Positions 10,656 through 31,812 of a stretch of DNA of 37,026 nucleotides are shown piece by piece. The first letter of the stretch is position 1. Every line of letters begins with the position of its first letter. Source of the DNA: Deltaproteobacteria bacterium (GTDB lineage: Bacteria; Desulfobacterota; DSM-4660; Desulfatiglandales; Desulfatiglandaceae). Location of the stretch: assembly GCA_021737425.1 (NCBI GenBank), contig JAIPDZ010000006.1, positions 1-37,026 of the forward strand. Direction: 5' to 3'. The position numbers and the translations under genes were made by a program. The notes beneath the pieces were generated by a model. That model was not told the origin of the DNA and did not search any database. It saw only the letters and a program-made list of their open reading frames with translations.

Positions 10656-13600
10656 TTACGCCTTTTTCACGTTGACCATAAAGGCCTTGGTTTCAGGTAT
10701 CCGGGTATTGGGATCGCCGGTGGACGGAGTCAGCAGGTTGGCTGAATCCCCACCGTTTTTGGGATGAACCCATCCATAATGCCACGGCAGGCCCACCTCA
10801 TGCACCGTGGTCCCCTGGATCTTAAAGGGTCTGAACCGGATGGTCACCACTGCAACCGCCTCCACCTTGCCCCGGGGCGATTCCACGATCACTTTTTCAC
10901 CGTTTTTGATCCCTCGCATCTTGGCCAGTTCCTGACTCATCTCCACAAAGAGCTGGGGCTGGGCCTCCAGCAACCATGGCTGCCACCGGGTCATTACCCC
11001 GGTCTGCCAATGTTCACTCACCCGGTAGGTGGTCCCCACAAACGGATACTGGGGATCGCAGGACTTGTAAATATCCATGGCCGTAGCATACTTGGGGGCC
11101 ACCGGGCTGACCAGTTGGTCGGAAAGGGCATTCTTTTCCACCGGACACTCCATGGGCTCGTAGTGTTCGGGGAAAGGTCCGTCCGCGCGGCCCGGTCCGA
11201 ATACATGGGCATGCCCCTCGGGCTTCATGATAAAGGGATATTTGGTGTCCGTGCGATCAGACCCGTCCGGGTTCTTCATGGGATACCATCCCCCGTCCGG
11301 CACATCGCCGACCCACTTTTTGGACACATATTTGCCGTCTTTGACATCTCCCTTAAACTCGATGACCGGATGCTCCTGGTCCCAGGGTTTTCCGGTCAAA
11401 TCCACCGAGGCCCGGTTGTAGATAATCCGCCGGTTGACCGGCCAGCACCAGGACCATTCCGGGTTCAGGCCGATGCCGGATTTTTCCCGTTTCCGTCTCG
11501 CCGCCATGTTCCCCTTGCTGGTGTAGGAGTTACAGTACAGCCAGTTCCCGCTGCTGGTGGAGCCATCGTCCTGGAGATAGGCAAAACTGGGCACCAGATC
11601 GCCCTTCTTGAAATGCTTCCCTTTGATGGTCACATCCCTCAGAAAATAACCATTGATCTCCTTGGCCATCTTGTGGGCATCAAACTCACCATGGGAGGTG
11701 TAATCCCATTTCAGGTTCAGAATCGGTTCCGGAAACACCGCGTCCTTGTCTTTCCGGTACAGGTACTTGAGTTTTTTACCCAGGGCGATGAGCATATCCC
11801 CGTCCGACCTGGCCTCTCCCGGAGGATCGGCCGCCTTGTAGCGCCACTGCATCCAGCGTCCGCTGTTGGTAATGGACCCCTCCTTTTCCACCGATACCGC
11901 ACAGGGGAGGAAGAAGACCTCGGTCTTGACCTTCTTGGGGTCCATGTCCGGGCCCTTCCAGAAGGACCCGGTCTCATTGTCGAAGATATTGACATTGACC
12001 ATCCAGTCCAGCTTGGTCATGGCCTCGCGGTTTTTGTTGGCGTTGGCCCCTGAGCCCGCAGGGTTCTGACCCCAGGCAAAAAAGCCGGAGAACTCACCCC
12101 GGTACATGGCATCAAAGAGATCCAGCCACGAATAGGTCTTGCCGTCATCCAGCTTGGGCAGCCAGTTATAGCCGAAATCGTTGGCCCTGGTGCCCTTGTC
12201 CCCAAAAAAGGATTTGAGCAGGCTGACCGAGTATTTGGGATAGTTTCCCCACCAGTTGGCGCTCAGTGGATCGTTGGTTTGGGGGGTGTACTTCTTGTTA
12301 TAAGCGGCCAGGGTCGGCTGGGAGGCCTTGGGGGTCTTAAGATACCCGGGCAGGATATGGAACAGGATGCAATGGTCCGTGGACCCCTGCACATTGGACT
12401 CCCCTCTCAGTGCATTGACGCCGCCGCCGGCCACGCCCATATTGCCCAGAAGCAACTGGATGATGGCCATGGCGCGAATATTCTGGACCCCCACCGTATG
12501 CTGGGTCCATCCCATGGCATACATGATGGTCCCGGCCTTGCCCTTGGCACCTGTGGCGCCGTAGGTCTCGTAGACCTTGGTCAAATCCTCTTTCGGGGTC
12601 CCGGTGATGGCCGATACCGTATCCACATCATAGCGGCTGTAGTGTTTTTTAAGCAGTTGAAGAACACACCGGGGATCCTGAAGGGTTCGGTCTTTCTTGG
12701 GAATCCCATTGGCGCCTTTCACAAATGCCCACTGGCTCTTGTCATATTTGTGTTGCTTGGGATTATACCCGGAGAAGAGCCCATCGGTGAAGCCGTAGGA
12801 GTCGGCCACGATGAAACACGCGTTCGTGTACTCGGCCACATACTCCTCAAAATATTTGTTGTTATTCAGGATGTAATTGATCATTCCGCCCAGGAAGGCG
12901 ATGTCAGTACCTGATCTCAGGGCGGTATAGATATCCGCCTTGGAAGAGGTTCGAGTGAATCTCGGGTCCACACTGATCAACGGGGCCCCATTCTTCATGG
13001 CCTCAGTGACCCATTTGAAGGATATGGGATGGTTTTCCGCTGCATTGGATCCCATGATCAGGATACAATCGCTGTTTTTGATGTCGATCCAGTGATTGGT
13101 CATTGCGCCGCGTCCGAACGACTCTGCCAGAGCCGCAACAGTTGCGCTGTGTCAGATACGGGCCTGGTGCTCGATATAGACCAGCCCCAGGGACCGCATT
13201 AAGGCCTGTATCAACCAGCATTCCTCATTGTCCAGTGCGGCGCTGCCCACATTGGCAATGGCGGTGGTGCGATTGACTACCTGGCCTTTGGCGTTTTTCT
13301 GCTCGAAACTGGCATCCCGGCTCTTTTTCACCCGCTTGGCAATGGTCCAAAGGGCCCAATCCCAGGATACCTTCTGCCATCTCGTGCTGTACGGGGCCCG
13401 ATACATGGGCGTGACGATCCGGCTGTCGTTGTTGGCCAACTGGCTCAGGGCCGCCCCTTTTGAGCACAGAGCCCCTTCGTTGACCGGATGATCCGGATCC
13501 CCTTCGATGTTGATGATTTTTCCCGCTCCCGCCTCTCCGGTGCTACAGATTACGCCACATCCAACAGCACAGTAACAACATATGCTCGTTGTCTCCTTGG

Positions 13601-13727
13601 CGTAGCGCAGCTTGAGTGTCTGGGCGTGGGATTTGAAGGGTTTCAAATCCAGTCCCAGGCCCAGCATGGCCGCACCTGCAGCAGAGGCCCCTGTGATCTT
13701 GAAAAAATCACGACGCGAAACGTTCAT
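10656..13727 (-). CDS. fdhA: Formate dehydrogenase alpha subunit, selenocysteine-containing, Tat-exported
   Basis: ORFs 13152..13727 and 10656..13103 are in the same frame, interrupted only by TGA at 13154-13152: ...EHQARI-U-HSATVAALAESFGRGAMTNHWIDI. Twin-Arg signal SRRDFFKITGASAAGAAMLG; CCYCAVGCGVIC cluster; SD AAGGAGG before ATG. Confidence 0.95.
13118..13136 (-). promoter_or_regulatory. Putative bacterial SECIS hairpin of fdhA
   Basis: Minus strand GCGGCTCT-GGC-AGAGTCGT, 8 pairs including G-U, starting 15 nt after the UGA. Confidence 0.65.
13152..13154 (-). other. In-frame UGA predicted as selenocysteine in FdhA
   Basis: TGA sits at the Mo/W-ligand position of the family motif (Q-A-R-x-[U/C]-H-S-x-T-V). 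Confidence 0.95.
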
Positions 13728-14217: not shown

Positions 14218-17200
14218 ATGCCCCAAAACATACAAGGGTCCGTACTGGTGGCGGGCGGCGGTATTGCCGGCATGCAGGCGGCCCTGGATCTGGCAGACTC
14301 CGGCTTTTACGTTCATCTGGTGGAAAGCTCTCCGGCCATCGGCGGGGTCATGGCCGAGCTGGACAAGACCTTTCCCACCAATGACTGTGCCATGTGAATC
14401 ATCTCTCCCAAACTGGTCGAGGTCGGCCGGCACATCAACATCCAACTTCATACCTGCTCCCGCATAGAACAAGTTCAGGGGGAGCCGGGAGACTTTGAAA
14501 TCACCCTTCATAAGACCCCCCGTTTTATCGATCCGGAGGTCTGTACGGGCTGCGGGGATTGTGCTCAAGTGTGCCCCGTCACCCTGCCCAATGAATACGA
14601 TCAGGGACTTACGGTTCGGAAAGCCATCTACAAAAAGTATCCTCAGGCCATTCCCGGGGCCTTTGCCATCCAGAAAACAGACCCGGCGCCCTGTGGCCTG
14701 GCCTGCCCGGCCCATCTGAATGTCCAGGGCTACGTACAGATGGTGGCGCAGGGCAAGTATGAGCAGGCCTTGGGCATCATTATGGAAAATCTGCCCCTTC
14801 CGGGAGTCCTGGGTCGCATCTGCCCTCACCCCTGCGAGGAGGCCTGCCGCCGATGTGAGGTGGATGAGCCGGTGGCCATCCGGGACCTCAAGCGGCTGGC
14901 TGCGGACCAGTTTGATCCCAGAGAGATACCCGTCCATTGCGATCCCAAAAGAGCGGAAAAGGTGGCCGTCATCGGGTCCGGACCGGCCGGTCTTACGGTG
15001 GCCTACCACCTGGCACGCAAAGGCATTCAGTCCACCATTTTTGAGGCCCTCCCCGAGCCCGGCGGGATGCTGCGGGTGGGCATCCCGGATTACCGGCTTC
15101 CAAGAGAGGTCCTGGACAGAGAAATCGAGGTGATTACCCACCTGGGAGTGGAAATACGCACCAACACCTCTCTGGGCCGCGATGTGACCATAGATGGCCT
15201 TTCAAAAGAAGGGTACCAGGCCGTATACCTCGCCATCGGCGCGCACAAGGGCATGGACTTGGGCATTCCCGGAGAAGATGCCCCAGGCGTGTGCCAGGGG
15301 GTGGACTTTCTAAGGGAAGTGAACCTCAAGGGAAATGCTGAAGTGGGGAAAAAGATCGCCATCATCGGCGGGGGGAACGTGGCCATTGACGTCTCCCGGT
15401 CCGCCCTACGGCTGGGGGCCGAAGCGGTTACCCTCCTCTACCGCCGGACCCGCGCAGAAATGCCCGCCTGGGAGGAGGAAATCGAGGCTGCCGAGGCCGA
15501 AGGGGTCCGGATGAGCTACCTCTCAGCCCCCCGGGAGGTGCTTGTGGAGGACGGGCAGGTGACAGGCCTGCGCTGCATCCGTATGGAATTGGGCGAACCG
15601 GATGGCTCGGGCAGGAGACGACCCGTCCCCGTACCGGAGAGTGAGTATGATATCGAGATTGATCAGTTGATTACGGCCATCGGTCAACGCCCCGATCTTT
15701 CAGTACTGGAGGGTATCCAGGGGCTTGAGTTCTCCAGATGGGGAACCCTGCAAGTGGATCCGGTGACCTGGGAAACCGGTCGCAAAGGCGTGTTTGCCGG
15801 GGGTGATCTTCAAACCGGGCCGGGAGTAGCCATTGATGCCGTCGCAGCCGGTCTACAGGCGGCCGAATCCATTGTCCGGTATCTAAACGGCCGGGAGAGG
15901 GCCCGGGAGCGCAAACCCGGATCCGATGAAAAACCCCGATACCGGCCCATCCCGCCGGAGCATCCCAAGGACTCCCGGGCCGGCATGCCCCAAATTTCCA
16001 TGGAAACGCGGGTCCACAGCTTCAAAGAAGTGGAAGCAGGGTATGATCCTGAAACCGGCCGGCGTGAAGCCAATCGCTGCCTGAACTGCGGCTACTGCTG
16101 TGAGTGTTATCAGTGTGTAAGCGCCTGTAAGGCAGGGGCCGTCACCCTGAAAACCCACGCCCAAAGGGTTGAAACGCTGACCATCCAGGCAGGTGCGGTC
16201 ATCCTGGCCCCGGGGTTTCAGCCCTTCGATCCTGCCGGGCACACGGCCTATGCCTATGGCCGGCATCCCAATGTGGTCACAGCCATGGAATTTGAGAGAT
16301 TTCTCTCTGCCTCTGGACCCACCCGGGGCCACCTGGTGCGACCCTCTGACGGAACCCCCCCCGGCAAAATCGCCTGGATCCAGTGCGTGGGATCCAGGGA
16401 CGTTCATGCCTGCGATCACGGGTATTGTTCCTCTGTGTGCTGCATGTATGCCATCAAGGAGGCCATCATTGCCAAGGAACACGCAGGGCCGGATCTGGAA
16501 TGCGCCATCTTTTACATGGACATGCGGACCCAGGGCAAAGACTTCGAGCACTACTATACCCAGGCCCGTGACCTTCACGGGGTGCGTTTCATCCGGTCCA
16601 GGGTCCCGGCCATCGACTGGACCGGTGGGGAACATACCCTCATCATCCCCTATGTGAATGAATCCGGCGAGATCGTCCAAGAGGCCTTTGATATGGTGGT
16701 TCTTTCCGTGGGAATGGAACCCGGCCCCATGGCCATGGACCTGGCCGGAACATTCGACTTGGCCCTGACCGAGGGACATTTTGCACAAACCGCTTCCTTT
16801 TCGCCGGTCTCCTCATCCAAAAAGGGGGTATATGTGTGCGGTGCATTCTCAGGACCCAAGGATATCCCCCAATCCGTCATTGATGCCGGTTCTGCAGCAG
16901 CCGAAGCAGGGGCCCTGCTCAGCGGCGCCAGAAACACCCTGACCGTGGAAAAACAGACCCCCCGGGAGCAGAATGTGAGCGGAGAGCGGCCCCGCATCGG
17001 GGTATTTGTGTGCCATTGCGGCATTAATATCAGCGGGGTGGTGGACGTCCCCGGGGTCAGGGACTACGCCGCATCACTTCCCTATGTGGAATATGTAACG
17101 GACAATCTATATACCTGCTCCCAGGACACCCAGGACGCCATGGCCAAGGCCATTCAGGAAAACCACTTGAACCGGGTGGTGGTGGCGGCTTGCACGCCCA

Positions 17201-18657
17201 AGACCCATGAGCCCCTGTTTCAGGAGACCCTCATCCAAGCCGGGTTGAACAAGTATCTCTTTGAGATGACCAATATTCGAAACCAGGATTCATGGGTCCA
17301 CAAGGACCATGAAGACCTGGCCACGCAAAAGGCCCAGGACCTGGTGAGAATGGCGGTGGCCAAGGTGGCCCTCATGGAACCCCTCGAGGACTTCCCTTTG
17401 GAGATCAACCCACGGGCCCTGGTCATCGGAGGGGGTATCTCGGGGATGACCGCCGCCAAGAGTCTGGCCGAACAGGGCTATGCGGTCTGCCTGACGGAAA
17501 GGGGATCTGAACTGGGAGGCCAGGCCCGCAACCTGTTTAGGACCTGGAAAGGGGAAGATATCCAAAAAAACCTGGATGAACTCATCTCAACGGTGGAGGC
17601 GAACCCCCGGATAGACGTCCGCCTGAACACTCAGCTATTGGACGCGGAAGGGTTTGTGGGCAACTTCAGGACCACCCTCGGGCCTCCCGGCGGGGAGGGG
17701 GAAACCATCGAACACGGGGTCACCCTCATCGCCACGGGCGCCAGTGAATCCGAGCCCCGGGAATACCTCTACGGGAAAGACCCCAGAGTGCTCACGCACA
17801 CCCAACTGGACCGGCGATTCCTGGCCCAGGACCCCGCACTCAAACAAATAAAAAGCGCGGTATTCATACAGTGCGTGGGTTCCCGGGAACCGGATCGGCC
17901 TTACTGTTCACGGGTATGCTGTACCCATTCCATTGAAAGCGCCCTCCATCTAAAAGAAATAAATCCGGACATGCGGGTATTCATCCTGTATCGGGATATC
18001 CGCACCTACGGGGAACGGGAATACCTCTATCGTCAGGCCCGCATGGCCGGGATCCTGTTCATCCCGTTTTCCCTGGATCAAAAACCACGGGTTTCCGCCG
18101 GTGACGAGGGTCTGAGAATCTCTGTCGTGGACCGTCTCTTGGAAAAAGAGGTGGTGATTACCGCTGATCTGCTCTCCCTGGCATCGGCCATCGTGCCCCC
18201 GGCAGACGAGGCCCTGTCCAAGTTCTTCAAGCTGCCGGTAAACGAGGACGGCTTTTTTGTGGAGGCCCATGCCAAACTGGGTCCCTCTGAATTTGCCACC
18301 GACGGCGTCTTTTTGTGCGGCATGGCCCACTACCCCAAACCCATAGATGAATCCGTGGCCCAGGCCCTGGCCGCCTCATCCAGGGCCGTGACCCTGCTGT
18401 CCAAAAAGTCCGTCCTTATGAGCGGAATGGTGGCCCATGTCAATTCCTCCCTGTGCAGCGGCTGCGGGGTATGTGCGGAGGTGTGCCCTTATTCCGCACC
18501 ATCCATGGTGTCAGAAGGGGCTTTGGCGCCCAGGGCCGAAATAAATCCGGTCCTGTGCAAGGGATGCGGGTTATGCGCGGCATCCTGCCGTTCCGGGGCC
18601 ATCAACCTAAGAGGGTTCGGAGAAGATCAGATTATGGCCATGATTGAACAGAGTTGA
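14218..18657 (+). CDS. hdrA: HdrA-like flavoprotein: HdrA-GltD-HdrA fusion, selenocysteine-containing
   Basis: In frame with ORFs 14203..14397 and 14569..18657 through TGA at 14395: [19 protein letters not shown]. Three FAD-type GxGxxG motifs ([24 protein letters not shown]), a GltD-type NAD(P) site ([29 protein letters not shown]), C-terminal 2x[4Fe-4S]. GAGGAG before ATG 14218. Confidence 0.93.
14395..14397 (+). other. In-frame UGA predicted as selenocysteine in HdrA
   Basis: UGA occupies the conserved Cys of the HdrA motif NDCAMC(I/L)xxPK. Confidence 0.92.
14413..14430 (+). promoter_or_regulatory. Putative bacterial SECIS hairpin of hdrA
   Basis: CTGGTC-GAGGTC-GGCCGG, 6 pairs with G-U, loop containing GGU, starting 15 nt after the UGA. 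Confidence 0.65.
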
Positions 18658-18734
18658 AGGAGCCTCCCGTGCCGGGGATAACGGCGAACGCAACACCTTA
18701 TCCATAATCATGAACAAACCAGGTGAGAAAACAT

Positions 18735-19202
18735 ATGACCGAGATTGATGTAAACAAGACAGATCCTTATTTTGCCAGGGACATTATGAACCAGCCCGGG
18801 GGTGAAAAGATATGGGCCTGCTTTTCGTGTCGCACGTGTACGGCAAGCTGTCCCATAGCAGCCATCAATCATACATTCAATCCTGCACGGATCATCCGGA
18901 TGGCCTTATACGGGCTAAAACAGGACATCCTTAGAAGCGACTTCATATGGTTTTGTTCAAACTGTTATGCGTGCCAGGAGAGATGCCCCCAGGGGGTACG
19001 CATTACCGACATCATGACCCTGTTGAAAAACATGGCCATCCAGGGGGGATATATGCCATCCGGCATCAAATCCCAAATGGATATCATCAAAGGGGAGGGT
19101 CGCATCTACCCCATTGACGATTTTGACAATAAAAAGCGGGCCAAGGCGGGTCTTCCGCCGCTCCCCACTTCGTGCGAGGTGGTCAAGGCACTGTTTTCAT
19201 AG
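18735..19202 (+). CDS. hdrC: Heterodisulfide reductase subunit C-like iron-sulfur protein
   Basis: CFSCRTCTASCPI and CSNCYACQERCPQG; AGGTGA before ATG 18735. Confidence 0.93.
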   Translation: MTEIDVNKTDPYFARDIMNQPGGEKIWACFSCRTCTASCPIAAINHTFNPARIIRMALYGLKQDILRSDFIWFCSNCYACQERCPQGVRITDIMTLLKNMAIQGGYMPSGIKSQMDIIKGEGRIYPIDDFDNKKRAKAGLPPLPTSCEVVKALFS

Positions 19203-19235
19203 GACCGTTTCGCCAAACACGTAAGGAATGAGCCG

Positions 19236-20111
19236 ATGACATACGCACTTTTTTTGGGCTGCACCATCCCCGCTCGATCCCGCAATTATGAACTTTCCGC
19301 CCGAAAGGTGGCCCAGCAGCTGGGGATTGAACTGGTGGACATGAATGACTTTGTGTGCTGCGGGTTTCCCCTTAAATCAGCGGACATGGACGCTGCCGAA
19401 CGAATGGCCGCCTACAATCTCAGCCTGGCCCAAAAGCAGAACCTTGATATCTGTGCCCTGTGCAGTTCCTGCACCTCGGCCCTGGCCGAAACCGCACACC
19501 ATCTCTCCCAGGATGATGGGCGAAGAGCCCTCGTCAACGAACAGCTGTCAAAAGTCGGGGCCGTGTACCAGGGGGATATCAGAGTAAGGCATTTTGCGCG
19601 GATTCTGTTGGAAGAGGTCGGTGCTGAGCGCATCCGTTCCCACCTGCACAAGGATCTGAGTGATCTCACCATCGCCGTACATTACGGGTGTCATTACCTT
19701 AAGCCTTCGGCCGTTCACAACCATTTTGACGACGTGGAAGACCCCCGATCTCTGGACACACTCATTGGGCTTACGGGCGCCAAAGTCATTGATTATCCGG
19801 GAAGAAGAAACTGCTGCGGGGGCCCTTTACTCCCTGTGGAGGAGGCCCTGGCCGCATCCGTCAGCAAGGAGAAGCTGGATGCGGTAAAAGAAGCGGGGGC
19901 TGATGCCATTTGCCTGGTATGCCCCTTTTGTGCCGTGATGTACGACGGCAATCAAAAAAGCATTGAGTCCCAATACGGGGTCGAGTACGGTCTTCCGGTC
20001 TTATACCTGACCCAGCTTTTGGGGGTGGCCATGGGTTTCGACAGAAAGGAATTGGGCCTGAATATGAATGTGGTCAAAACCAAGGCCCTGTTAAAACGCT
20101 ATTTTGAATAA
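19236..20111 (+). CDS. hdrB: Heterodisulfide reductase subunit B-like protein (two CCG domains)
   Basis: GCTIPARSRNYE...FVCCGFPL...CALCSSC and HYGCHYLKP...NCCGGPLL...CLVCPFC. Confidence 0.94.
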   Translation: MTYALFLGCTIPARSRNYELSARKVAQQLGIELVDMNDFVCCGFPLKSADMDAAERMAAYNLSLAQKQNLDICALCSSCTSALAETAHHLSQDDGRRALVNEQLSKVGAVYQGDIRVRHFARILLEEVGAERIRSHLHKDLSDLTIAVHYGCHYLKPSAVHNHFDDVEDPRSLDTLIGLTGAKVIDYPGRRNCCGGPLLPVEEALAASVSKEKLDAVKEAGADAICLVCPFCAVMYDGNQKSIESQYGVEYGLPVLYLTQLLGVAMGFDRKELGLNMNVVKTKALLKRYFE

Positions 20112-20114
20112 GGG

Positions 20115-23100
20115 TTACGACAGAGATACCAGTTGTTCCCGGATTCGGTCAAATTTCTTGGCGATGAGGGTTTCAAATTCCTTTCCAAAAAACCACCTGT
20201 TTTCCTGCAAGTACCACTTGATTTGGTCCCAATAGCCCTGCAGGGCATCCAGGTCATGGATGGAAGCCAGGGTTTGGTCAATGTCGTTCAACCGATCCCG
20301 TTTGAGATTGTCCTTGCGGAATTCATACAGGTCGTTTAGGCGTTCTCTTTGATCCGGTGTAAACCCCATATCCCATGATCGAGCCGAGATATCGGTCACC
20401 ATCTCATGGAGCTTCTTGAAATCCCTGACCTGATCCATCCGGGCCTTGATCTTATTTAACATCATGTCAATGATATCGTGCATCCTGGCCTCAAAGGCTT
20501 TCTCCAGTTCCAGTTCGTAATCCTCGGTATAAAAGCGATGCTTTCTCAGTGACCTGAGGCTGCCATGGAAATAGTTCTTGAGTTGATCCAGGTCATTTAT
20601 GGAATACATACGGGAGATCTTGCGGGGGAGGTTGATTCGTTCCTGAAACTGGATAAAAAGCACATGATGCGCATCATCTCTTCTGAAAAGAAGTCCTGTC
20701 TTGGCCTTGAACAGCTGGTCCGGGGCGGATTTGTCTTCCCAGAGCTTTTCCGTGCTCAAGGTATTTAAAAAGTGATTGGCGGCTTCGTAGCGTTTTTCAA
20801 TCACCTCACTCATGTCCAGGAAATTCAGGCAAATGGGAACCCGTGAAACGGGATGCATCCTGTGGGCGCCCAACAGGGCGGCCAAAAGGAGTTTGATCCT
20901 GTTTTCATAACTGAGATACCCGCTCACCTTTTCATACCCGGCAAGCCTGATACGGTCCCCCACGAGCTGCTGCAGGATAAAATGCCGCCTGGCTTCCACC
21001 AGGTTCTCGAGCGTATTGTAGATGCGAAAGGTTTCGTATACCTCCTTTTCAAAGGTGGCATACCCCACATTCAAAAAATTTCGTTTGCGATGAATGAATC
21101 TGAGCGGAACGCCCAGGAATATATCCACCAGATCTCGATATTGGACATATTGAATCCCCTGCAATCTAAAAATCCGCTCCACGGCAAAAATCATTTTCCC
21201 CGCCTCAAGCCGTTTGGACCCATCCACTGCCTCCCATTTGCCTGACTCCAGATAGTCGGCAGCGGTAACCCCTTCGGGGAGGCCCTTTTTCTGGAACTCC
21301 TCCAGGGCGTAATAGAGCGATCCCCGGCTTATAAAGGCCTCGTCCAGCTGTGCACGGAGGGTGGTTTTCCCGTCAATGATATTGTGGCACATGGACCTGA
21401 TCTGGAAAAGACGACCGGCCAGGTCCTCCAATATCAGGTCCTCCCGCATGGCCGAAAGCATCACAAACGAAAAGACAAAAAAGGCATCCAGGAGTTCCTT
21501 GTCCCGGGGCACAATGATCTCCCGAATGGCTGCGTAAGAGATTTCTCCCCGCACGTTATGATGAAACAGGCTGTGGTGCCTGACCAGGAAGATAAAGTAC
21601 TCCTTCCCCTTTTGATCCAGATGATACTTTTCGGCCAAATGTTCTTTTTCAATGAACAGGGCGCCCGCACCGCCCACGTCTGCCGGATTGATGTCATGGG
21701 CGTACTTTTGTCTCATCTCAGGGAGCCTTCCCACATCCTGAAATATAAAGGACTTGGCAAGGGCATCCAGCAGGGAAGCATTGTGATTGATGCCCTCCAC
21801 GATCCGGCACAGGTTCTCCAACTGGGACGTACTGAGTCCGATGATCCCTACAGCCATGGGTCCGAATTCCTTCTGGGCGCGCCGATGCAGAAATTGAATG
21901 TCCTGGAAGTCTTGTTTGTTCCGCGTCACCAGGGCCTGAAACTTCCGGGTGGCGATCATGAGATAATCCGTAATGGGGCGGTTGAGATAAAGTCGACCCA
22001 CGATATCCACATCTTTCAGCGCGGTAAACTCGGGGATCAAGAAGTCGAGCAAAAGCGGGGCGTGGTGAAAAAGGAGGTCCAGGTCCGTAAACAGGTGCTC
22101 CGGGCGAAAGATCACCTGGAGCAGGTTTCCTTTCAGGGCCTCTCTCAACGCCTCAGCCTTCTGAAACCAGGCAATCTGTTTCGTGGGCAGTGCAGGAGGG
22201 GATTCCGCATCCTGAATAAGGGTGAGGTGACTCTGATAAAAGGTTTTCAAATTCCCGAAAAGGGTGTTCAGGGTCTTTAGGTCCGTGAGGGGAATATCCG
22301 CCACAGGTCGGTTGGCCAATTCCTTCAACAGGCGGTCCAGGGTATCCAGGTTTTCTCCCATATCCTTGTAGTCGATCTCCAAGACCTCCCGTTCCCGGCC
22401 GGATACACTGATTTGAAACCCGGTCCCCACGATAAAGGAGGACCGGCTCTGTTCCAGTTGTTTCCGAAATCGGTCCAGGATATCCAGGTCTAAGTAATGG
22501 ACATTGATGGCCCGGGCCTCCGCCTCCACCTTTTTTATGTGCGCATCGATGTCTCCCGCTTCCACCTCAGTGAGAATCGGATTGAAGTTAATGATCTTCC
22601 CCTGCGCCAGACTCACCGTAATCCAGAGAAGTACAAATATGTTTCGACTGTCCATGCGTTGAAAAAGATGCCCGGTCCCATGGAATTCCGTCTCCAGAAA
22701 CCGACGGTAAAATTGCGGCAGTTCCAGGGGATCAAATTTCAGGTACATCTGTTCAAATTCCTCCACCGTACGGATAAGCCTCAACACATTCTCGATCCTG
22801 GATAGTTTCACCTCATTATAGTCGGCCAGGGACTCCTTCTCCATCTCCCCTTTCCCGGGCAGTTCGGACCATTCATAGAGGAATTCGAAATACCCCATCA
22901 TCATGAGGACCTTTCGGATGATCTTGTTGTGTATCCCGCCCATGGCCGTGATTTTCTCATCCAAAAGCTGATCCCAGTCCAATTCCTGGTTGATGATCAC
23001 CCGCACCGTAGACTCATACAGGTCAAAAAGTTCCTTGAGCTGCTCCGGCGAGAGTTCCGCATCTCCGGCCGCCTCGGTTTCCGCCAGCGTCATGACCCGA

Positions 23101-24827
23101 CAGTACCGGAGCAGGTTAAGGGCTTCCTGGGGATCATATTTTTGGGCCATGTCTGAAACAGGTTTCAGGGTTTTTTCGGTCATCTTGCCTGAAATGATGC
23201 GCCCGAAGTGGGTGTGGCCCAGGACAATCAGGAGAACCTCCCTCAACTCAGGGGAATCAAATCCGAAAAAAGTGAGCGCTTCCAGGTTGTTAATGACGCT
23301 CGTGGCAGGTCCTTCCATATTCTCCGGGTTAAGGTATTCCCGAATCCTCTCCAGGCGTTTGATTCTGGATATGAGCTTGATGACATGATTGAATGCCCCG
23401 AACCGCCGATTGCGGTTTTCAAAGGGCTGTCTGAGGCGATCCACGAAAACCTGGGGCAACGTACGGTGGTCCCCCTTTCTCAGCCCGTCCAAAATCCTCA
23501 GGGTTCGGATCAAAAACTCAAAGGAATCCCGGTATTCGGCCACCAGTTCAATGGGACAGCCGCTGAGATTGGATTCTCCAACCTCCTGCTTGATGTCTTT
23601 CAGGGTGGCTTTCAACGGCCTTTTGCACCCCAGATACACCATCATGCACTGGGGAACATAATCGGTAAAAGAGAGCCTTTCTTCCCAATCCCGCCTGACC
23701 GGTTCGGGAAGCGTGGCGTGGAGATACGTCTGGTCAAAAAAAGTGGGGAGGATCCGGTCCCAGGTCTTTTCCTGGTTCACGGTGAAAGGCCATTGTGCAA
23801 ACCCGCTGTTAAAATAGGGTAGACGATCGATCTCTTTGAGGGACATCTCTTCCAGAGATCGTCCTCGCAGCAATTGGTCCACTACATCCTGCAACACATA
23901 CCGGCCGTCTAAATACTTCTCCAGATCGGAGACGTTAACGAAGACGCGATGGTCCTTGATGCGATATTTTTTCTTGGTGGCGAAAATATGGGTGAAGAGA
24001 GCGAAACGCTTCTCTTCCAATTCGGTCCTGAATGTGATTTCAGTCTTCTGCTTGGTTTTTCCTGAGAGATGATTGGCGATAATAAAGAGCTCGCCATCAG
24101 GACTCAATGCCTTGTATATCTTCCAGAGGATGTAGATGCAATGCGCGTCAAGCCGTTTCTTTGACAACGCCGCCTGATTGAGCACACTGGACCGCTGCAT
24201 GAGGACCACCTCATACAAATCGCCGGTCAGTATGACCAAATCCAAGGGTGTGCTCACCCGCTTGAGCCGTTCCGGGGAGTCCAGCACAAAGAGATGGTGT
24301 TCCTTGAACTGAAGAGAGAGCTCCTGCACGATCAAGTCATCTTGGGTACTCAAGATACCGATATGTTGCTGCTCTCTCAGGTTTTTCTTTATATGCAGAT
24401 GAACGATGCGGGTGATCTCATCCACCTTTGCCTTCACCTGCGTCAGCGTATCGGAAATGAGGTGAATGGGAATCAGGTAATAAGGTTTTCCAAAACGGGA
24501 AAACCGGATGAGCAGCCCGATCTTTCGGTATATTTCATTAAGGACCCGATAATTTTGTTTCACGTCTTCGGGGTCTTCAAAGCAGATGGAATTGAGTATC
24601 TCCATTTCCTTTGGCTTGAGTCTGTCGTAGTCCTCGAAAAGCCCCAAGCCATAGGCATTTCCGCCGAATCGACTCCTCAGCTGGGAGGGATGTCTGAAGG
24701 ACGCCACAGTGCCCAGCGGCACGTAAGCAGGATCAATCCCGAGGTCCTCATAATTTTCAGGTTTGATGAATTGAAACGGGCCTTCCTGCCAGAAGGCCTC
24801 CTTGGGAAGGGTATCAGTAGAACCCAT
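20115..24827 (-). CDS. Giant (1570 aa) uncharacterised protein; degenerate methyltransferase-like N-terminal region and GlnD-like HD region are inferred
   Basis: Single uninterrupted 4.7-kb ORF. Contains KALSPDGELFIIANHL (post-motif of class I MTase) and FIFQDVGRLPEMRQ...DVGGAGALFIEKEHLAEKYHLDQKGKEYFIFLVRHHSLFHHNVRGEI (GlnD HD-like). Confidence 0.9.
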   Translation of the reverse strand: MGSTDTLPKEAFWQEGPFQFIKPENYEDLGIDPAYVPLGTVASFRHPSQLRSRFGGNAYGLGLFEDYDRLKPKEMEILNSICFEDPEDVKQNYRVLNEIYRKIGLLIRFSRFGKPYYLIPIHLISDTLTQVKAKVDEITRIVHLHIKKNLREQQHIGILSTQDDLIVQELSLQFKEHHLFVLDSPERLKRVSTPLDLVILTGDLYEVVLMQRSSVLNQAALSKKRLDAHCIYILWKIYKALSPDGELFIIANHLSGKTKQKTEITFRTELEEKRFALFTHIFATKKKYRIKDHRVFVNVSDLEKYLDGRYVLQDVVDQLLRGRSLEEMSLKEIDRLPYFNSGFAQWPFTVNQEKTWDRILPTFFDQTYLHATLPEPVRRDWEERLSFTDYVPQCMMVYLGCKRPLKATLKDIKQEVGESNLSGCPIELVAEYRDSFEFLIRTLRILDGLRKGDHRTLPQVFVDRLRQPFENRNRRFGAFNHVIKLISRIKRLERIREYLNPENMEGPATSVINNLEALTFFGFDSPELREVLLIVLGHTHFGRIISGKMTEKTLKPVSDMAQKYDPQEALNLLRYCRVMTLAETEAAGDAELSPEQLKELFDLYESTVRVIINQELDWDQLLDEKITAMGGIHNKIIRKVLMMMGYFEFLYEWSELPGKGEMEKESLADYNEVKLSRIENVLRLIRTVEEFEQMYLKFDPLELPQFYRRFLETEFHGTGHLFQRMDSRNIFVLLWITVSLAQGKIINFNPILTEVEAGDIDAHIKKVEAEARAINVHYLDLDILDRFRKQLEQSRSSFIVGTGFQISVSGREREVLEIDYKDMGENLDTLDRLLKELANRPVADIPLTDLKTLNTLFGNLKTFYQSHLTLIQDAESPPALPTKQIAWFQKAEALREALKGNLLQVIFRPEHLFTDLDLLFHHAPLLLDFLIPEFTALKDVDIVGRLYLNRPITDYLMIATRKFQALVTRNKQDFQDIQFLHRRAQKEFGPMAVGIIGLSTSQLENLCRIVEGINHNASLLDALAKSFIFQDVGRLPEMRQKYAHDINPADVGGAGALFIEKEHLAEKYHLDQKGKEYFIFLVRHHSLFHHNVRGEISYAAIREIIVPRDKELLDAFFVFSFVMLSAMREDLILEDLAGRLFQIRSMCHNIIDGKTTLRAQLDEAFISRGSLYYALEEFQKKGLPEGVTAADYLESGKWEAVDGSKRLEAGKMIFAVERIFRLQGIQYVQYRDLVDIFLGVPLRFIHRKRNFLNVGYATFEKEVYETFRIYNTLENLVEARRHFILQQLVGDRIRLAGYEKVSGYLSYENRIKLLLAALLGAHRMHPVSRVPICLNFLDMSEVIEKRYEAANHFLNTLSTEKLWEDKSAPDQLFKAKTGLLFRRDDAHHVLFIQFQERINLPRKISRMYSINDLDQLKNYFHGSLRSLRKHRFYTEDYELELEKAFEARMHDIIDMMLNKIKARMDQVRDFKKLHEMVTDISARSWDMGFTPDQRERLNDLYEFRKDNLKRDRLNDIDQTLASIHDLDALQGYWDQIKWYLQENRWFFGKEFETLIAKKFDRIREQLVSLS

Positions 24828-24976: not shown

Positions 24977-25780
24977 TTAAAGCCATCTTTTGCGGCGTTT
25001 ATAGGCCTTTACATCCTTGTATGATTTGAGGGTTCCGGATGCAGCGGTTCCCAGGTAAAACTCTTTCACATCCGGATTTTCTCTCAACTCCTGGGCACTG
25101 TTTTCCATAACGATTTTGCCGTTCTCCATCACATAGCCGTAATGGGCAATCTGGAGCGCCATATTGGCATTTTGTTCCACCACCATCAGGGTGGCGGCCT
25201 GTTCTTCATTGATCCGCTTGATGATCTGGAATATCTCTTTCACCAGCAGGGGCGCCAACCCCAGGGAAGGCTCATCCAGCAATAGGAGCATGGGATGGGC
25301 CATCAGGGCCCGGCCGATCACCAGCATCTGAAGTTCGCCTCCGCTGCAATATCCGGCCATGGCCCTTTTGCGGGCCAAAAGCGCGGGGAAGTAATGGTAG
25401 ACCAAATCCAGATCCTTTTGATAGGGTTTTCCCCAGCGCGTCGCCGTACCCACCCGCAGGTTCTCTTCCACGGTTAAGTACTTAAATTCCTGCCGCCCCT
25501 CCAGGACCTGGATGATCCCTTTCCGGGTAATTTCCTCGGGTGAAGAATTCTGGACCGCTTTGCCATCGTACTCGATGGATCCTTCCGTCACTCTGCCGTT
25601 TTCAGGCTTTAGCAGACCTGAAATGGCCTTCAGCGTGGTGGTTTTGCCGGCGCCGTTGCTCCCCAAGAGCGACACAATCTGTCCCTCCCGGATGGTGAGG
25701 GACACCCCCTTGAGGACCTGTATGACATCGGAATAGACCACACTGATATTGTTGATCAGCAGCCTTACATTACCTTCCAT
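24977..25780 (-). CDS. livF: Branched-chain-type ABC transporter ATP-binding protein (LivF-like)
   Basis: Walker A LLGSNGAGKTTTLK, signature CSGGELQMLVIGRALM, Walker B LLLLDEPSLGLAP. Confidence 0.93.
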   Translation of the reverse strand: MEGNVRLLINNISVVYSDVIQVLKGVSLTIREGQIVSLLGSNGAGKTTTLKAISGLLKPENGRVTEGSIEYDGKAVQNSSPEEITRKGIIQVLEGRQEFKYLTVEENLRVGTATRWGKPYQKDLDLVYHYFPALLARKRAMAGYCSGGELQMLVIGRALMAHPMLLLLDEPSLGLAPLLVKEIFQIIKRINEEQAATLMVVEQNANMALQIAHYGYVMENGKIVMENSAQELRENPDVKEFYLGTAASGTLKSYKDVKAYKRRKRWL

Positions 25781-25818: not shown

Positions 25819-26889
25819 TCAATAGGAAAACGGCCAGAGCCTGAAGCTTGACCGCACAATCCGCCATACCTCTGCCAGACCCTTGGGTTCAAAAATGATG
25901 AACAGGACAATGGCCAGCCCGTAAATGAACTCGCGGAGCGGTGCAATGGTCAGGGCCACCCCGGTGCTGGCCCCGATATTCATGAGATATTCGGTAATCA
26001 TGCTCAACACCTCATTTAAGGAGACAATGAACACGGAACCGAACACGGCCCCCGGAATGCTCCCCAGCCCTCCGATGATGATCATGGCCACATATTCGAT
26101 GGACAGTCCCAGATTAAAAGGCTCCGGGGTGATACTCATCATATAATACGCATAAAGGGCTCCGGCAAATCCAGCATAAAAAGAGCTGACGGCGAACGAC
26201 AGCAGCTTGTAGGGAAACACCGGGATCCCCATCCCTTCTGCGGCCCGGTCATTATCCCGGATGGCGATAAAGGCGCGCCCGATCCGGGTTCGAATCAGAT
26301 TGACCGCTATCCAGGTCATGAGGACAAAACAGATGAATACCACGTAGAAAAAGGACCGGTCAGAGCCCAAATCCAGTCCGAATAAGGATGCACTGGGCAC
26401 CACAATGCCCATGGCCCCGCCGGTGAGGCTCTCCCACTGCACCAGGACATAGTCCACAATGAACTGCCCGGCCAGGGTGGCGATACACAGGTAGAGGTGC
26501 TTGAGCCGGGCAGAGGGGAGCCCGAAGATCATCCCCACCCCCGAAGCCACCACCCCTGCCAGGGGGACCGACAGCCAGAACGGAAAGCCCAATCGGGTGG
26601 CCAGGATGGCCCCGGCATAGGCCCCCACGCCGAAAAAAGCCCCGTGACCCAAAGAGATCTGCCCCGTAAATCCGATAAGGAGGTTCAGGCCCACCGCGGC
26701 AATGGCATAAATACCGATGGTATTTAAGATATAAAGAAAGTAGGCGCTGCTGATGAAGGGGACCACCGCAAACAACAGCAACATACCGATCCACATCCAC
26801 AGCCGTCCGAAATCGGTATCAAAAATGGCCAGTTCCTCTTTGTAACTGACGTTGAAATTGCCGCAGGGATGAAACTGTAGCTTGCGCAT
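25819..26889 (-). CDS. livM: Branched-chain-type ABC transporter permease (LivM-like)
   Basis: Polytopic; ALGLNLLIGFTGQISLGHGAFFGVGAYAGAILA-type motif (AVGLNLLIGFTGQISLGHGAFFGVGAYAGA). Confidence 0.94.
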   Translation of the reverse strand: MRKLQFHPCGNFNVSYKEELAIFDTDFGRLWMWIGMLLLFAVVPFISSAYFLYILNTIGIYAIAAVGLNLLIGFTGQISLGHGAFFGVGAYAGAILATRLGFPFWLSVPLAGVVASGVGMIFGLPSARLKHLYLCIATLAGQFIVDYVLVQWESLTGGAMGIVVPSASLFGLDLGSDRSFFYVVFICFVLMTWIAVNLIRTRIGRAFIAIRDNDRAAEGMGIPVFPYKLLSFAVSSFYAGFAGALYAYYMMSITPEPFNLGLSIEYVAMIIIGGLGSIPGAVFGSVFIVSLNEVLSMITEYLMNIGASTGVALTIAPLREFIYGLAIVLFIIFEPKGLAEVWRIVRSSFRLWPFSY

Positions 26890-26895
26890 TTTTTG

Positions 26896-27774
26896 TTACA
26901 CCCTTTCTATCTCTACCAGTCCGAACAGTCCGTAGGGCTTCACCATGAGGATAAAGATGAGGACAATATAGGGAATAATCTCCCTCAGCGAGGTGGAAAT
27001 ATACCCGCCGGTAAAGCTCTCCAAGAGTCCGATGATGATGCCCCCGAGTATGGCGCCGCCGATACTGTCCAGTCCGCCTAAGATCACCACCGGAAATACC
27101 TTGAGCCCTATGGAACTCAACTCGTGTACGTTGATCCCGTTGATAATCCCCAGTACGATGCCGCTGATGGCGCAGACCAGTCCTGCAATGGCCCAGGACA
27201 GGGCAAACACCCGCCGCACATGGACCCCGAGGGAAAGGGCCGCGGGCTGATTGTCAGCCACGGACCTCATATAGATCCCCTGGGATGAATACTTGAAAAA
27301 GAGACCGAACAGAATCAGAAAGAGGATACCGATGATGAAGGCCGCCACATACACGGAAGGGATGTTAATGGCCCCCCATTGGATGGTGAGCGCTTCCGGC
27401 AGAAAATCCGGGTAATCGTGGATGTCCCCGCCGAAGATAAACAGCAGCAGCCCCCTGAACATGAGGGCCAGCCCCAGGGTCAGCATAATCACCTGAATCA
27501 GGGCCTCCCCGATGAGGGGACGGAGAAAGAATTTCTCCAAAATGAACCCCAAGGTGAAACTGCCGATCATGGTAAACACAAAGGCCAGAAGGATGGGAAG
27601 CCCGGCCCACGCGGAAAGGGCCAGAAATATAAAGGCCCCGATGGCCATCAGTTCGCCGTGGGCGAAGTTGAGCACGCTGCTGGACTTAAAGATCATAACA
27701 AAGCCCAAGGCCGAAAGCGCATACAAAAATCCCAATGACAGGCCGTTTACGAGAAGCTGAAGAAAGAATTCCAT
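26896..27774 (-). CDS. livH: Branched-chain-type ABC transporter permease (LivH-like)
   Basis: LVNGLSLGFLYALSALGFVMIFKSSSVLNFAHGELMAIGAF; VVILGGLDSIGGAILGGIIIGL. Confidence 0.94.
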   Translation of the reverse strand: MEFFLQLLVNGLSLGFLYALSALGFVMIFKSSSVLNFAHGELMAIGAFIFLALSAWAGLPILLAFVFTMIGSFTLGFILEKFFLRPLIGEALIQVIMLTLGLALMFRGLLLFIFGGDIHDYPDFLPEALTIQWGAINIPSVYVAAFIIGILFLILFGLFFKYSSQGIYMRSVADNQPAALSLGVHVRRVFALSWAIAGLVCAISGIVLGIINGINVHELSSIGLKVFPVVILGGLDSIGGAILGGIIIGLLESFTGGYISTSLREIIPYIVLIFILMVKPYGLFGLVEIERV

Positions 27775-27794
27775 ATCAGGTCCATCCCCCGTGC

Positions 27795-29744
27795 CTACAC
27801 GGTCAGTATCTTGACCGTGGTCTCTATGGTTCCCACTGTGCCGTCCCTATAGCGCACCTGGCCCTTGATGGGCAGTTCGGTCTTATCCGCGTACATGGCA
27901 TCGATCAGTTTTTTGTATTCCTCAAACACAAACTTCCGCCGCACCTTTCCGGTCCGGGTCAGTTCCTCATCGTCCGCATCGAGGAGTTTATACAATAAAA
28001 TAATCTTGACCAGTTTCATGGGATCGGGCAGCTGGTTGTTCACCTCGGCCACTTCCCCGCGGATCAATTCCTCCACGGCCGGCTGCTGGGAGAGGTCGGT
28101 GTAGGTGGTATAGGGTATTTTTCTGTCTTCCGCCCAGTTCCCCACGTTTCCGAAATCAATGTTGACGAATGCAGTGAGATAGGGCTGGCCCTCTCCCCAT
28201 ATGACGGCTTCCTTGATATACGGGCTGAATTTAAGCCGGGTCTCAATGAAATCCGGTGAAAAGGCCTCTCCCTCCACGGTCCGCATGATGTCCTGTTTTC
28301 TACCGATGATCAACAAATGGCCGTCTTCATCGAAATAGGCGGCGTCGCCGGTGTAAAACCATCCGTCTTTCAGGGCCTCGGCCGTGGCCTCCGGGTCCTC
28401 GTAATACCCCACAAAGTTGGACTTGCTCTTGACCAGCACTTCCTGGTCTTCCATGATCCTCACCTCGGTACCCGGGAGCGCCTTGCCTACCGTTTCGGGC
28501 TTTACCTCATGGTCGGGTTGGACCTGGAATATACCGCAGGTCTCGGTCAGGCCATAGCATTGCTTCAGATTCAGGCCGTTGGCCCTGAAAAACTTGATCA
28601 CATCCGGACTGATGGGGTGCCCCCCGGTGTAGGCGACACGAAAATTGAGACATCCCACCCGATCCAGAAGGGGTCGGGCCACGAGCCGATGGGAAATCCA
28701 CCGCCAGGATTTCAGCTTTGAAGGGATCGGCTTCCCTTCCGATTCCAGCTCCACCACTTCTCTTCCCACTCGCTGGGCAAAATTATACAGCCCCCGTTTG
28801 ATAAAACCGGCATCGGCTATTTTGACCCGGATCTTGGACGCCAAATCCTCCCAGAACCGGGATGAACTGATCATGACCGTGGGACCGATGTCCCTGAAAT
28901 CCTCGGTGGCCGTTTCAAAGGTCTCAGGGAAATTCATGACCAGCCCGCCGCACAGGGTCACCCCCGCCCCCCACATCTGATCCACAATCCAGGCCGTGGG
29001 GGTAATGGAAATCCAGTTGTCTTCAATGCCGATGGGCGCGGTCTGGATCCATTTGGCGGCCATATCCGTAAGGTTCATGTGGGCCAGCATGACCAGCTTC
29101 GGGACCCCGGTGGTCCCGGAGGTCATGAGCATCAGGGCCACATCCTCGGGATTGCCTTCCCACAATTCCTTGATAAAGAGTTCGGGCTCCTCCTTGTCCA
29201 ACTCCTCTCCCAGCTCCAGCAACTGGCTGAAGCTGATCAGCCACGGGTCATCTCCGTATGTGCGCATGCCCGTGGGATCGATATAGATGATATGCCGGGT
29301 ATACTGCAGCTCTTCTCTTACAGCGAGGAGCTTGTCCACCTGTTCCTGATCCTGGGCAAATACGTACGCGGCCTGAATACGACCCAACCCCCCGGCCAGT
29401 TCCTTGGCCACGGCCGACGTAAACAGGGTGAGGGTTACCGCCCCCACGGACTGGGCCCCCAACTGGGCGAAAAGCCATTCAGGATCGTTGTCCACGATCA
29501 TCCCCACGTTTTCGCCCCGTTTCAGACCAAGGGACACCAGGCCCAGGGCCACCAGTTTGGTATACCGGAGATAATCCTTCCAGGTGTAATTGTGCCATAT
29601 CCCGTAGGACTTTTCCCGAATGGCGATTTTGTCATCCTTAAATTTCTCCGCCTGCCTGGATAGGACCTGAGGCAGGGTGAATTCTCCTAAGGAATCCAAA
29701 CTCTCCTGATCTATCCGCTCAATCTTGTGGGGGGTAGCTTCCAT
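27795..29744 (-). CDS. AMP-binding acyl-CoA synthetase (long-chain-type)
   Basis: MLMTSGTTGVPKLVMLAHMNL, QCYGLTETCG, GWFYTGDAAYFDEDGHLLIIGRKQDIM. Confidence 0.94.
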   Translation of the reverse strand: MEATPHKIERIDQESLDSLGEFTLPQVLSRQAEKFKDDKIAIREKSYGIWHNYTWKDYLRYTKLVALGLVSLGLKRGENVGMIVDNDPEWLFAQLGAQSVGAVTLTLFTSAVAKELAGGLGRIQAAYVFAQDQEQVDKLLAVREELQYTRHIIYIDPTGMRTYGDDPWLISFSQLLELGEELDKEEPELFIKELWEGNPEDVALMLMTSGTTGVPKLVMLAHMNLTDMAAKWIQTAPIGIEDNWISITPTAWIVDQMWGAGVTLCGGLVMNFPETFETATEDFRDIGPTVMISSSRFWEDLASKIRVKIADAGFIKRGLYNFAQRVGREVVELESEGKPIPSKLKSWRWISHRLVARPLLDRVGCLNFRVAYTGGHPISPDVIKFFRANGLNLKQCYGLTETCGIFQVQPDHEVKPETVGKALPGTEVRIMEDQEVLVKSKSNFVGYYEDPEATAEALKDGWFYTGDAAYFDEDGHLLIIGRKQDIMRTVEGEAFSPDFIETRLKFSPYIKEAVIWGEGQPYLTAFVNIDFGNVGNWAEDRKIPYTTYTDLSQQPAVEELIRGEVAEVNNQLPDPMKLVKIILLYKLLDADDEELTRTGKVRRKFVFEEYKKLIDAMYADKTELPIKGQVRYRDGTVGTIETTVKILTV

Positions 29745-29776
29745 AGGCTGTCCAATGACTCGATACTTGGGCGATG

Positions 29777-30607
29777 CTATTCAATTTTTGACGTGTCCCC
29801 GAGATAGGCCTTGATGACCTGGGGATGATTCTGGACGAAATCCGGGGAACCCTCTGCGATCTTGACACCGAAATCAAACACGGCCACCCGTTTGGAAATG
29901 CTCATCACAATGGACATGTCGTGTTCCACCAGAATCATGGTCTGGTTCCAGGCCTCATTGAGTTCCATCAAAAACCGGACCATGTCTTCCTTTTCTTCCA
30001 GGGTCATACCGGCAAACGGTTCATCCAGCACCAGCAGCTTGGGCTCCAGGGCCAGGGCACGCCCCAGTTCCACGCGCTTTCGCATGCCGTACGGAAGCGA
30101 TCCCACCAGTTGGTTGCGTAAGCTCTGCATCTCCAAAAAGTCGATCAACTCTTCCAGTATCCGGCGGTGACGCACCTCTTCATCCTGGACGCTCTTCATA
30201 AAAAGGGCGGCCTTGCCCACATTATAACGGCAGTGAACATGGCGGGCCAGAAGCATATTGGAAAGCACGGTCATTCCGGGAAAGAGTTCGATGTTCTGAT
30301 AGGTGCGTCCGATCCCCTTCCGGGTCAGGTGATGGGTGGAAAGACCGGTCACCTCATCGCCGTTGAAAAAGATCTGCCCCTCCTGGGGCTTATAATACCC
30401 TGTGATACAGTTGAGCAGGCTGGTCTTTCCGGCCCCGTTGGGCCCGATTACGGCCACCAACTCACCGGTACTCACGGCGATGTCGATCTTGCTGAGGGCC
30501 GTAATGCCCCCGAACTTGAGGGTAAGGTCCTTCACTTCCAGCCCGGCCCGCCTCTCTTCGGGCCGGGCGGAACTGAAGATACTGGGATTCCCGCGAAAGG
30601 CTTTCAT
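29777..30607 (-). CDS. livG: Branched-chain-type ABC transporter ATP-binding protein (LivG-like)
   Basis: Walker A VIGPNGAGKTSLLNCITG, Walker B LLVLDEPFAGMT; ATGA overlap with the upstream binding-protein gene (30604-30607). Confidence 0.93.
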   Translation of the reverse strand: MKAFRGNPSIFSSARPEERRAGLEVKDLTLKFGGITALSKIDIAVSTGELVAVIGPNGAGKTSLLNCITGYYKPQEGQIFFNGDEVTGLSTHHLTRKGIGRTYQNIELFPGMTVLSNMLLARHVHCRYNVGKAALFMKSVQDEEVRHRRILEELIDFLEMQSLRNQLVGSLPYGMRKRVELGRALALEPKLLVLDEPFAGMTLEEKEDMVRFLMELNEAWNQTMILVEHDMSIVMSISKRVAVFDFGVKIAEGSPDFVQNHPQVIKAYLGDTSKIE

Positions 30608-31812
30608 TTGAGGAGGGTTACCTTCTCTTTTTTCGGGTTCCAGAACTTGGTGAGCGGCTCAAAGGTCTGGTCTTCGTTGATCTTCACAATCCTGGCCGTA
30701 AAAGAGGCGCTGTGATCGGTGTCCGTGTAGGTAATGTTGGGGACCAGGCCGCCGAAGTCTTCATTCTGGAAGGTCTCCAGGGCCACGTTGATGGCCTCGC
30801 TGTCTGTTTTTCCCAGTTTGTCGTGGGCCCTCTGGAAGGCCTTGGCCATGATGGCGCCGACGGTCACACCTTCCCAGTAGGCCGTGTCAAACTTGGAGAC
30901 GGTCCCGTACCGTTCCCACAAATCCGTCAGCAGCTTGATGCCCGGGTTATCATCCCCCGGCAGACACCCGGGAAACTGCATGTGCATCCGGTCCCGGATG
31001 AGTCCTTTTCCCCGCTTGAAAAAATCGGGATCCGTGGAGGTCCAGGTCCCGAAAAAAGGGACGTCAAACTGGACCCGGTCCGCGGACTCCAGGGCCATGA
31101 TAATGGCGGAGGGAAGACACTGCATGAAGATGTACTCAGCGCCTTTGTCTTTGAGTCTCAACAACTCCGTCTTGAGGTCGAGGCTCTTGGGCGGAAACTG
31201 TTCGACGGCCACAATGTCTATGTTATGTTTTGAGGCATATTCCTGGCTGGGGTCGTGGATGGACTTCCCATAGGCGTTATTATAGGTAAGCAGGCCCACC
31301 TTGGGCGGTGCACTCCCTTTATGGATGGCATTGATGTATCCCAGGACCGCGTAGCAGTCCATGACATAACTGCCGAAAGGGAGATAGGCATAATCCACCG
31401 GGGGTTTTAAGATCCCCTGATAAGTGGAATAATTGATGTTGGGAACCTTATATTTTTGGATAATGGGTTTGGCCATGATCCCGGACCCGGCATCCCAGGT
31501 GGCGATCATGTCCATTTTGTCTGCGGTGCAGAATTTCTTAACGTATTTGAGGGCTTCCGGAACCTTATAGGCATGGTCGACCACAGTCAAATCAATCTTG
31601 TTTCCTGAGATCCCCCCCTTCACTTCATTGATATACCGGAAGTAGTCCTGTTGGCCCTTGGCATGGAATTGACCCCATGTGGAAGCAGGCCCGGTCAGGT
31701 TAATCACAGCGCCTACCTTGATATCCTCCGCCACGGCAGCGGATGGAAGTCCCATCCCGATCATTCCTGCTGCCACCAAAGTCACCGTTGCCAAAAACAG
31801 TAATCTACGCAT
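30604..31812 (-). CDS. ABC transporter substrate-binding protein (LivK-like)
   Basis: Signal peptide MRRLLFLATVTLVAAGMIGMGLPSAAVA; IKVGAVINLTGPASTWGQFHAKGQQDYFRYINEVKGGISGNKI. Confidence 0.92.
   Translation of the reverse strand: MRRLLFLATVTLVAAGMIGMGLPSAAVAEDIKVGAVINLTGPASTWGQFHAKGQQDYFRYINEVKGGISGNKIDLTVVDHAYKVPEALKYVKKFCTADKMDMIATWDAGSGIMAKPIIQKYKVPNINYSTYQGILKPPVDYAYLPFGSYVMDCYAVLGYINAIHKGSAPPKVGLLTYNNAYGKSIHDPSQEYASKHNIDIVAVEQFPPKSLDLKTELLRLKDKGAEYIFMQCLPSAIIMALESADRVQFDVPFFGTWTSTDPDFFKRGKGLIRDRMHMQFPGCLPGDDNPGIKLLTDLWERYGTVSKFDTAYWEGVTVGAIMAKAFQRAHDKLGKTDSEAINVALETFQNEDFGGLVPNITYTDTDHSASFTARIVKINEDQTFEPLTKFWNPKKEKVTLLK

Follow-up and report, generated by a model that had tools for sequence, protein, structure and literature searches.

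A 184-kDa single-copy protein of Desulfobacterota that combines a methyltransferase-like fold with a duplicated pseudo-HD core

HD domains are linked to nucleotidyltransferases in described enzymes such as GlnD (the PII uridylyltransferase / uridylyl-removing enzyme, TIGR01693) and the class II CCA-adding enzymes and poly(A) polymerases with an HD domain (3wfo-3wfr; pcnB-type), both of which pair the HD domain with a helical neck. Class I SAM methyltransferases, including Rv2258c and RdmB, are built on a Rossmann-like fold that carries a GxG loop for SAM. Dre2 (anamorsin/Dre2), an essential multidomain protein, already offers a case in which a SAM-methyltransferase fold is incomplete (PMC3440578).

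A 1570-aa protein from a 4.1-Mb draft genome of Desulfobacterota, encoded in the 37,026-nucleotide stretch of DNA analyzed here (the window), recalls parts of each of these systems and matches none of them as a whole. Specifically, its likeness to GlnD comprises the neck and HD region (aa ~896-1190 versus GlnD 401-612); in contrast to GlnD, it has no recognizable nucleotidyltransferase domain, with no segment aligning to the GlnD N-terminal domain, the HD histidine is gone in 65 of 65 sequences, the HD unit is doubled and an extra N-terminal third is present. The likeness to CCA-adding enzymes and poly(A) polymerases likewise consists of neck and HD, with nothing aligned beyond them, whereas the nucleotidyltransferase head is missing, the HD unit is duplicated and the metal ligands are lost. 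With the class I SAM methyltransferases it shares the Rossmann-like fold at modest statistics, but it lacks the GxG SAM loop and any significant sequence relation, and the domain is embedded in 1570 aa.

A very large cytoplasmic protein outside the named families

The gene occupies positions 20115-24827 on the minus strand, as delimited by ORF calls and orthologues. It is the uninterrupted 4.7-kb frame of 1570 codons that a preliminary description of this DNA had reported, it starts with ATG, and no in-frame start codon lies between the upstream stop and that ATG. The product has a mass of 184 kDa, a pI of 6.5 and no convincing membrane segment, and is thus a very large, cytoplasmic protein. 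The same description had assigned it to no recognized family, which held up: the protein, its orthologues and the profiles tried found no match in Pfam or NCBIfam and none among PDB sequences, and PADLOC-DB returned nothing for the window protein. A role in anti-phage defense is rejected for want of a PADLOC match. No paper on the family was found in the literature, and a term search of the NaphS2 genome paper brought up nothing that bears on it. Among viral fold models (BFVD), one, H1ZV28, scored a probability of 0.99 but an E of 0.06, and the rest are mostly long helical proteins and unsupported. NCBIfam gives no full-length TIGR01693 match for the protein, and the locus is missing among the TIGR01693 matches listed for its own genome, which carries real glnD genes elsewhere; a role as GlnD replacement is ruled out by these separate genes.

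In an Rfam search of the window, a tRNA is the sole match at gathering score, and no conserved RNA leader was found for the 1570-aa gene. Further along the window, a DUF507-like protein (35882-36427, plus strand) and an ORF of 173 aa that has no match in Pfam (34954-35475, plus strand) adjoin a zinc-ribbon protein and a tRNA-Met gene. With the in-frame TGA taken as selenocysteine (U192), the ORFs 13152-13727 and 10656-13103 elsewhere in the window (minus strand) would together encode a molybdopterin protein of 1024 aa, formate-dehydrogenase-like and TAT-exported. A SECIS_3-like match just after the TGA (13099-13157; E 3.8e-6), at 35 bits, falls short of the gathering score (63), and the folding energy of this region is not unusual.

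Domain architecture

The protein was modeled with AlphaFold2 from 61-sequence alignments in two parts, aa 1-810 (pLDDT 85.9, pTM 0.82) and aa 690-1570 (pLDDT 90.3, pTM 0.82). Its core consists of two tandem repeats, aa 425-840 and about 985-1410, in which a pseudo-HD domain is combined with a beta-hairpin module. Repeat A starts with pseudo-HD 1 (aa 425-640; 22908-23555, minus strand, as are all segments of the gene), placed by profile comparison, and ends with a helix/beta-hairpin module seen in the AlphaFold2 model and in profiles (aa 723-840; 22308-22661; LLWITVN..INFNP..FIxGTGFQL). Repeat B contains pseudo-HD 2, which together with its helical neck (aa 896-1190; 21258-22142) is GlnD- and CCA/poly(A) polymerase-like by profiles and fold search, and ends with the second module (aa 1301-1410; 20598-20927; AlphaFold2, profiles). 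Long C-terminal helices follow (aa 1411-1570; 20118-20597; AlphaFold2, orthologue lengths). The two repeats give one colinear alignment of 304 columns at 89% hhalign probability (E 2e-6), and when profile segments are compared, the HD-like parts score 93% and the hairpin modules 61%; these probabilities are single pairwise comparisons of shallow alignments, with clean controls (reversed sequences at most 0.9%, and at most 0.4% for the values of 89-93%). The pseudo-HD and beta-hairpin unit is thus present twice through internal tandem duplication. Both hairpin modules are modeled in beta-alpha-beta-beta-alpha order, which suggests an ACT identity, and by profile neither matches the GlnD ACT region significantly.

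By profile, pseudo-HD 2 is akin specifically to the HD domains that accompany the nucleotidyltransferase in GlnD and in CCA/poly(A) polymerases. With its neck it reaches, again in single pairwise comparisons of shallow alignments, 95-96% probability against GlnD and 64-81% against CCA/poly(A) polymerases, whereas the reversed sequence, six unrelated neighbor families, HD-GYP and RelA all stay below 2%; an origin from HD-GYP or RelA is rejected on the same figures. In a Foldseek search of the PDB with the C-half model, the first 14 rows belong to one entry group, annotated as tRNA processing enzyme / poly A polymerase, at a best E of 2.8e-3, which is above 0.001. The GlnD-like HD region that the preliminary description had read at aa 980-1200 is therefore borne out, at ~896-1190 with the neck included, while the second pseudo-HD at aa ~425-640, the product of the duplication, had been missed.

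Neither pseudo-HD carries the expected metal-binding signature. In pseudo-HD 2, the HD-motif histidine occurs in none of the 65 aligned sequences and is replaced by Q (50), R (7), Y (6), N (1) or K (1), the last Asp position is mainly S or A, and H1051 is found in just 27/65 sequences; H1085 is kept in 60/65. Pseudo-HD 1 is more diverged than pseudo-HD 2 and contains no HD motif. Where an RHH motif would be, it has the family motif GHTxMGRIxxGK (aa 537-548; 23184-23219), identified in the 65-sequence alignment, whose G537, H538, R543, G547 and K548 are each present in at least 63 of the sequences (K548 in 65, H538 in 64, R543 in 63). This motif and HGTGHLF are near-invariant in the family.

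The N-terminal third contains an invariant loop, SRFGGNAYGxGLFE (aa 52-66; 24630-24674), delimited by conservation and AlphaFold2. Since this is the best conserved stretch of the family, yet is modeled with low confidence, GGNAYGxG is probably a mobile binding loop. It is followed by a possible winged helix (aa 69-125; 24453-24623), drawn from AlphaFold2 secondary structure only as two helices and then a beta-hairpin (helix-helix-hairpin at aa 72-120), and by a long linker helix (aa 121-149). As such, aa 69-149 may recall the winged helix and linker of O-methyltransferases, as a resemblance only.

The adjoining segment (aa 151-310; 23898-24377) has a class I SAM-methyltransferase-like fold according to AlphaFold2, fold search and alignment. 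The best 50 PDB matches of the N-half model in Foldseek are all class I methyltransferases, among them the anamorsin methyltransferase-like domain, Rv2258c, RdmB, SibL and chalcone O-methyltransferase; probabilities reach 1.00, and no match passes E 0.001 (best E 4.2e-3). Profile comparison of this region, including aa 69-149, against O-methyltransferases gives a non-significant 10-19%, and significant sequence homology to them is accordingly rejected. The motif I SAM loop is missing: the consensus at its position is (I/V)GLLTxxDDL, with G157 as the sole conserved glycine around beta-1, followed by T-x-x-D-D. Beta-2 still ends with an acidic residue (D183, which is D or E in 59/65 sequences), and D196 persists in the domain. 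Both the methyltransferase-like fold proposed earlier for aa ~150-310 and the absence of its glycine-rich SAM loop are thereby confirmed.

Distribution, selection and gene neighborhood

More than 60 full-length orthologues without internal stops were found at 28-62% identity, nearly all of them 1540-1580 aa long, with one copy per genome apart from copies split over contigs. Within 99 related genomes, the gene is present in 63, comprising 42 of the 46 genomes of its own family; of two further families of the same order, one has it in 16 of 17 genomes and the other in none of 18. Sampled across the phylum Desulfobacterota, it occurs in 38 of 394 genomes and is confined to a few families. A wider scan, in which 84,980 species genomes were searched for a conserved peptide pattern, found 92 relatives, and very diverged ones could be missed, because the search outside the phylum rested on one such pattern. 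The 80 listed of these 92 belong to Desulfatiglandales/NaphS2-like lineages, Syntrophobacteraceae and Desulfarculaceae, none lying outside Desulfobacterota except one contig labeled Aminicenantes. Presence in Aminicenantes is rejected, since this contig nests in the tree beside a Desulfobacteraceae MAG and is probably mis-binned. Cultured hosts include NaphS2, Desulfoferrobacter suflitae, Desulfocarbo indianensis and Dethiosulfatarculus sandiegensis.

The protein tree broadly tracks the named lineages, and inheritance looks vertical. Between near pairs, dN/dS is 0.04-0.22 across the whole gene and well below 1 in each domain, so the gene is not decaying, and together with the stop-free orthologues these values exclude a chance ORF. 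The gene is thus kept as an old, single-copy Desulfobacterota gene under purifying selection. This bears on the overall interpretation in the preliminary description, which had seen a sensor or scaffold made of eroded catalytic domains. The domain types and the loss of both catalytic signatures stand, with no SAM loop and no HD histidine in the 65 sequences; 'eroded' does not, as all domains are under purifying selection and the term is misleading for a protein whose new polar motifs, GHTxMGRIxxGK and HGTGHLF, are near-invariant. The duplication had escaped notice, as had the distribution, which is that of an old Desulfobacterota gene in single copy.

One lineage, f42, has short variants of 1139-1245 aa without the C-terminal part. 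Specifically, the ORFs of L083 (genome G154, 1245 aa) and L084 (genome G183, 1139 aa) retain the N-terminal motif, with most of aa ~260-350 also missing from L084, and are possibly a minimal form of the family. Fusion to another protein, as in the 2034-aa frame of G099 and similar long frames, is rejected, these being only upstream extensions of the open frame.

Directly upstream of the gene in the window lies a livF-type ABC ATPase gene (24977-25780, minus strand), 149 nt away, followed by the remainder of a Liv-type ABC cluster that also includes an acyl-CoA ligase (25819-31812, minus strand; livM, livH, fadD-like, livG and substrate-binding protein), all assigned by Pfam / NCBIfam. About 14 related loci, at identities down to 39%, also have a livF-type gene in this position and on the same strand, at 0-93 nt, which suggests co-transcription of the two genes in Desulfatiglandales and hints there at a link to how organic or amino acids are taken up and activated with CoA. 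On the other side, the gene is convergent with hdrB, part of an electron-transfer cluster (14569-20111, plus strand) in which a 1362-aa fusion of a GltD-like NAD(P)-binding part with an HdrA2-like part precedes HdrC-like and HdrB-like genes. Other lineages have htrA/pgpA/VanZ-type genes, with gyrBA/gpsA near, or a divergent M20 peptidase gene, and in some the neighbors are mnmG, fusA, orn or a tRNA-ligase-like gene. In one clade (L137, L148, L149, L150, L156), the orthologue is followed on the same strand, after 212-432 nt, by the gene of a hybrid histidine kinase, which comprises GAF, PAS, HisKA, HATPase and receiver domains. The neighborhood is conserved solely within lineages, and because neighbors differ between them, it is a weak functional hint.

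Candidate functions and significance

The best fit to these data, put forward tentatively and short of even confidence, is a Desulfobacterota-specific multidomain sensor or scaffold that is cytosolic and non-catalytic, since the catalytic signatures of two folds are lost, the core is duplicated and new motifs are conserved. In such a protein, pockets marked by GHTxMGRIxxGK, HGTGHLF and INFNP would bind a small metabolite, a nucleotide, RNA or a partner protein, ligand binding may shift the arrangement of the two repeats, and the mobile GGNAYGxG loop, together with the N-terminal module, could engage a target. More speculatively, the family might be a lineage-specific allosteric megaprotein of a new class: an HD domain of the nucleotidyltransferase-linked kind would have lost both its catalytic partner and its metal site, been duplicated along with a beta-hairpin module and been fused to a methyltransferase-like module, and would now serve anaerobic, sulfate-reducing Desulfobacterota as a core cytoplasmic sensor.

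Against a sensor or scaffold, an active site would account just as well for the near-invariant H, R and K residues. The protein would then be an undescribed enzyme of re-tooled HD and methyltransferase folds, in which the three pocket motifs form a new catalytic center. The conservation of H538, R543 and K548 (64, 63 and 65 of 65 sequences) is of the polar kind typical of a catalytic or phosphate-binding site, and D183 (D or E in 59/65) and D196 remain in the methyltransferase-like domain; however, the known catalytic signatures are missing from both folds, no Pfam or NCBIfam match names a reaction and no dedicated substrate pathway recurs in the neighborhood across lineages, and we regard such an enzyme as unlikely.

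A still less probable reading is an RNA- or tRNA-binding factor, in which the CCA/poly(A) polymerase-derived neck and pseudo-HD hold RNA, with recognition aided by the methyltransferase-like domain and the possible winged helix. The CCA-type profile match does extend over the neck, the C-half fold matches are poly(A) polymerase/CCA-adding chains and mnmG, fusA, orn or tRNA-ligase-like genes lie nearby in some lineages. However, the match to GlnD, a protein-modifying enzyme, is the stronger one, no nucleotidyltransferase head is there to position the tRNA end, the neighbors vary by lineage and can be coincidental, and the protein, at pI 6.5, is not basic.

Least probable of all, and improbable in its own right, is a DNA-binding regulator of the Rv2258c-/RdmB-type, with a winged helix, a ligand-binding methyltransferase-like domain and a large C-terminal effector, controlling for example the neighboring uptake operon: livF adjacency, the helix-helix-hairpin at aa 72-120 with its long linker helix before the methyltransferase-like fold, and top fold matches to Rv2258c, RdmB, SibL and chalcone O-methyltransferase, which carry an N-terminal winged helix, are compatible with it, but O-methyltransferase winged helices serve dimerization rather than DNA binding, aa 69-149 shows no significant profile match to these enzymes, and the size and architecture are unlike known regulators.

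A 184-kDa protein kept in single copy almost throughout a major marine-sediment lineage is costly and probably important, and none of the libraries used has a name for it. As a sensor or scaffold, it would be an unusually large case of enzymes turned into a non-catalytic machine. It could also lead to a regulator or binding factor found specifically in sulfate-reducing and hydrocarbon-degrading Desulfobacterota, and the named cultured hosts, such as NaphS2, make the protein testable.
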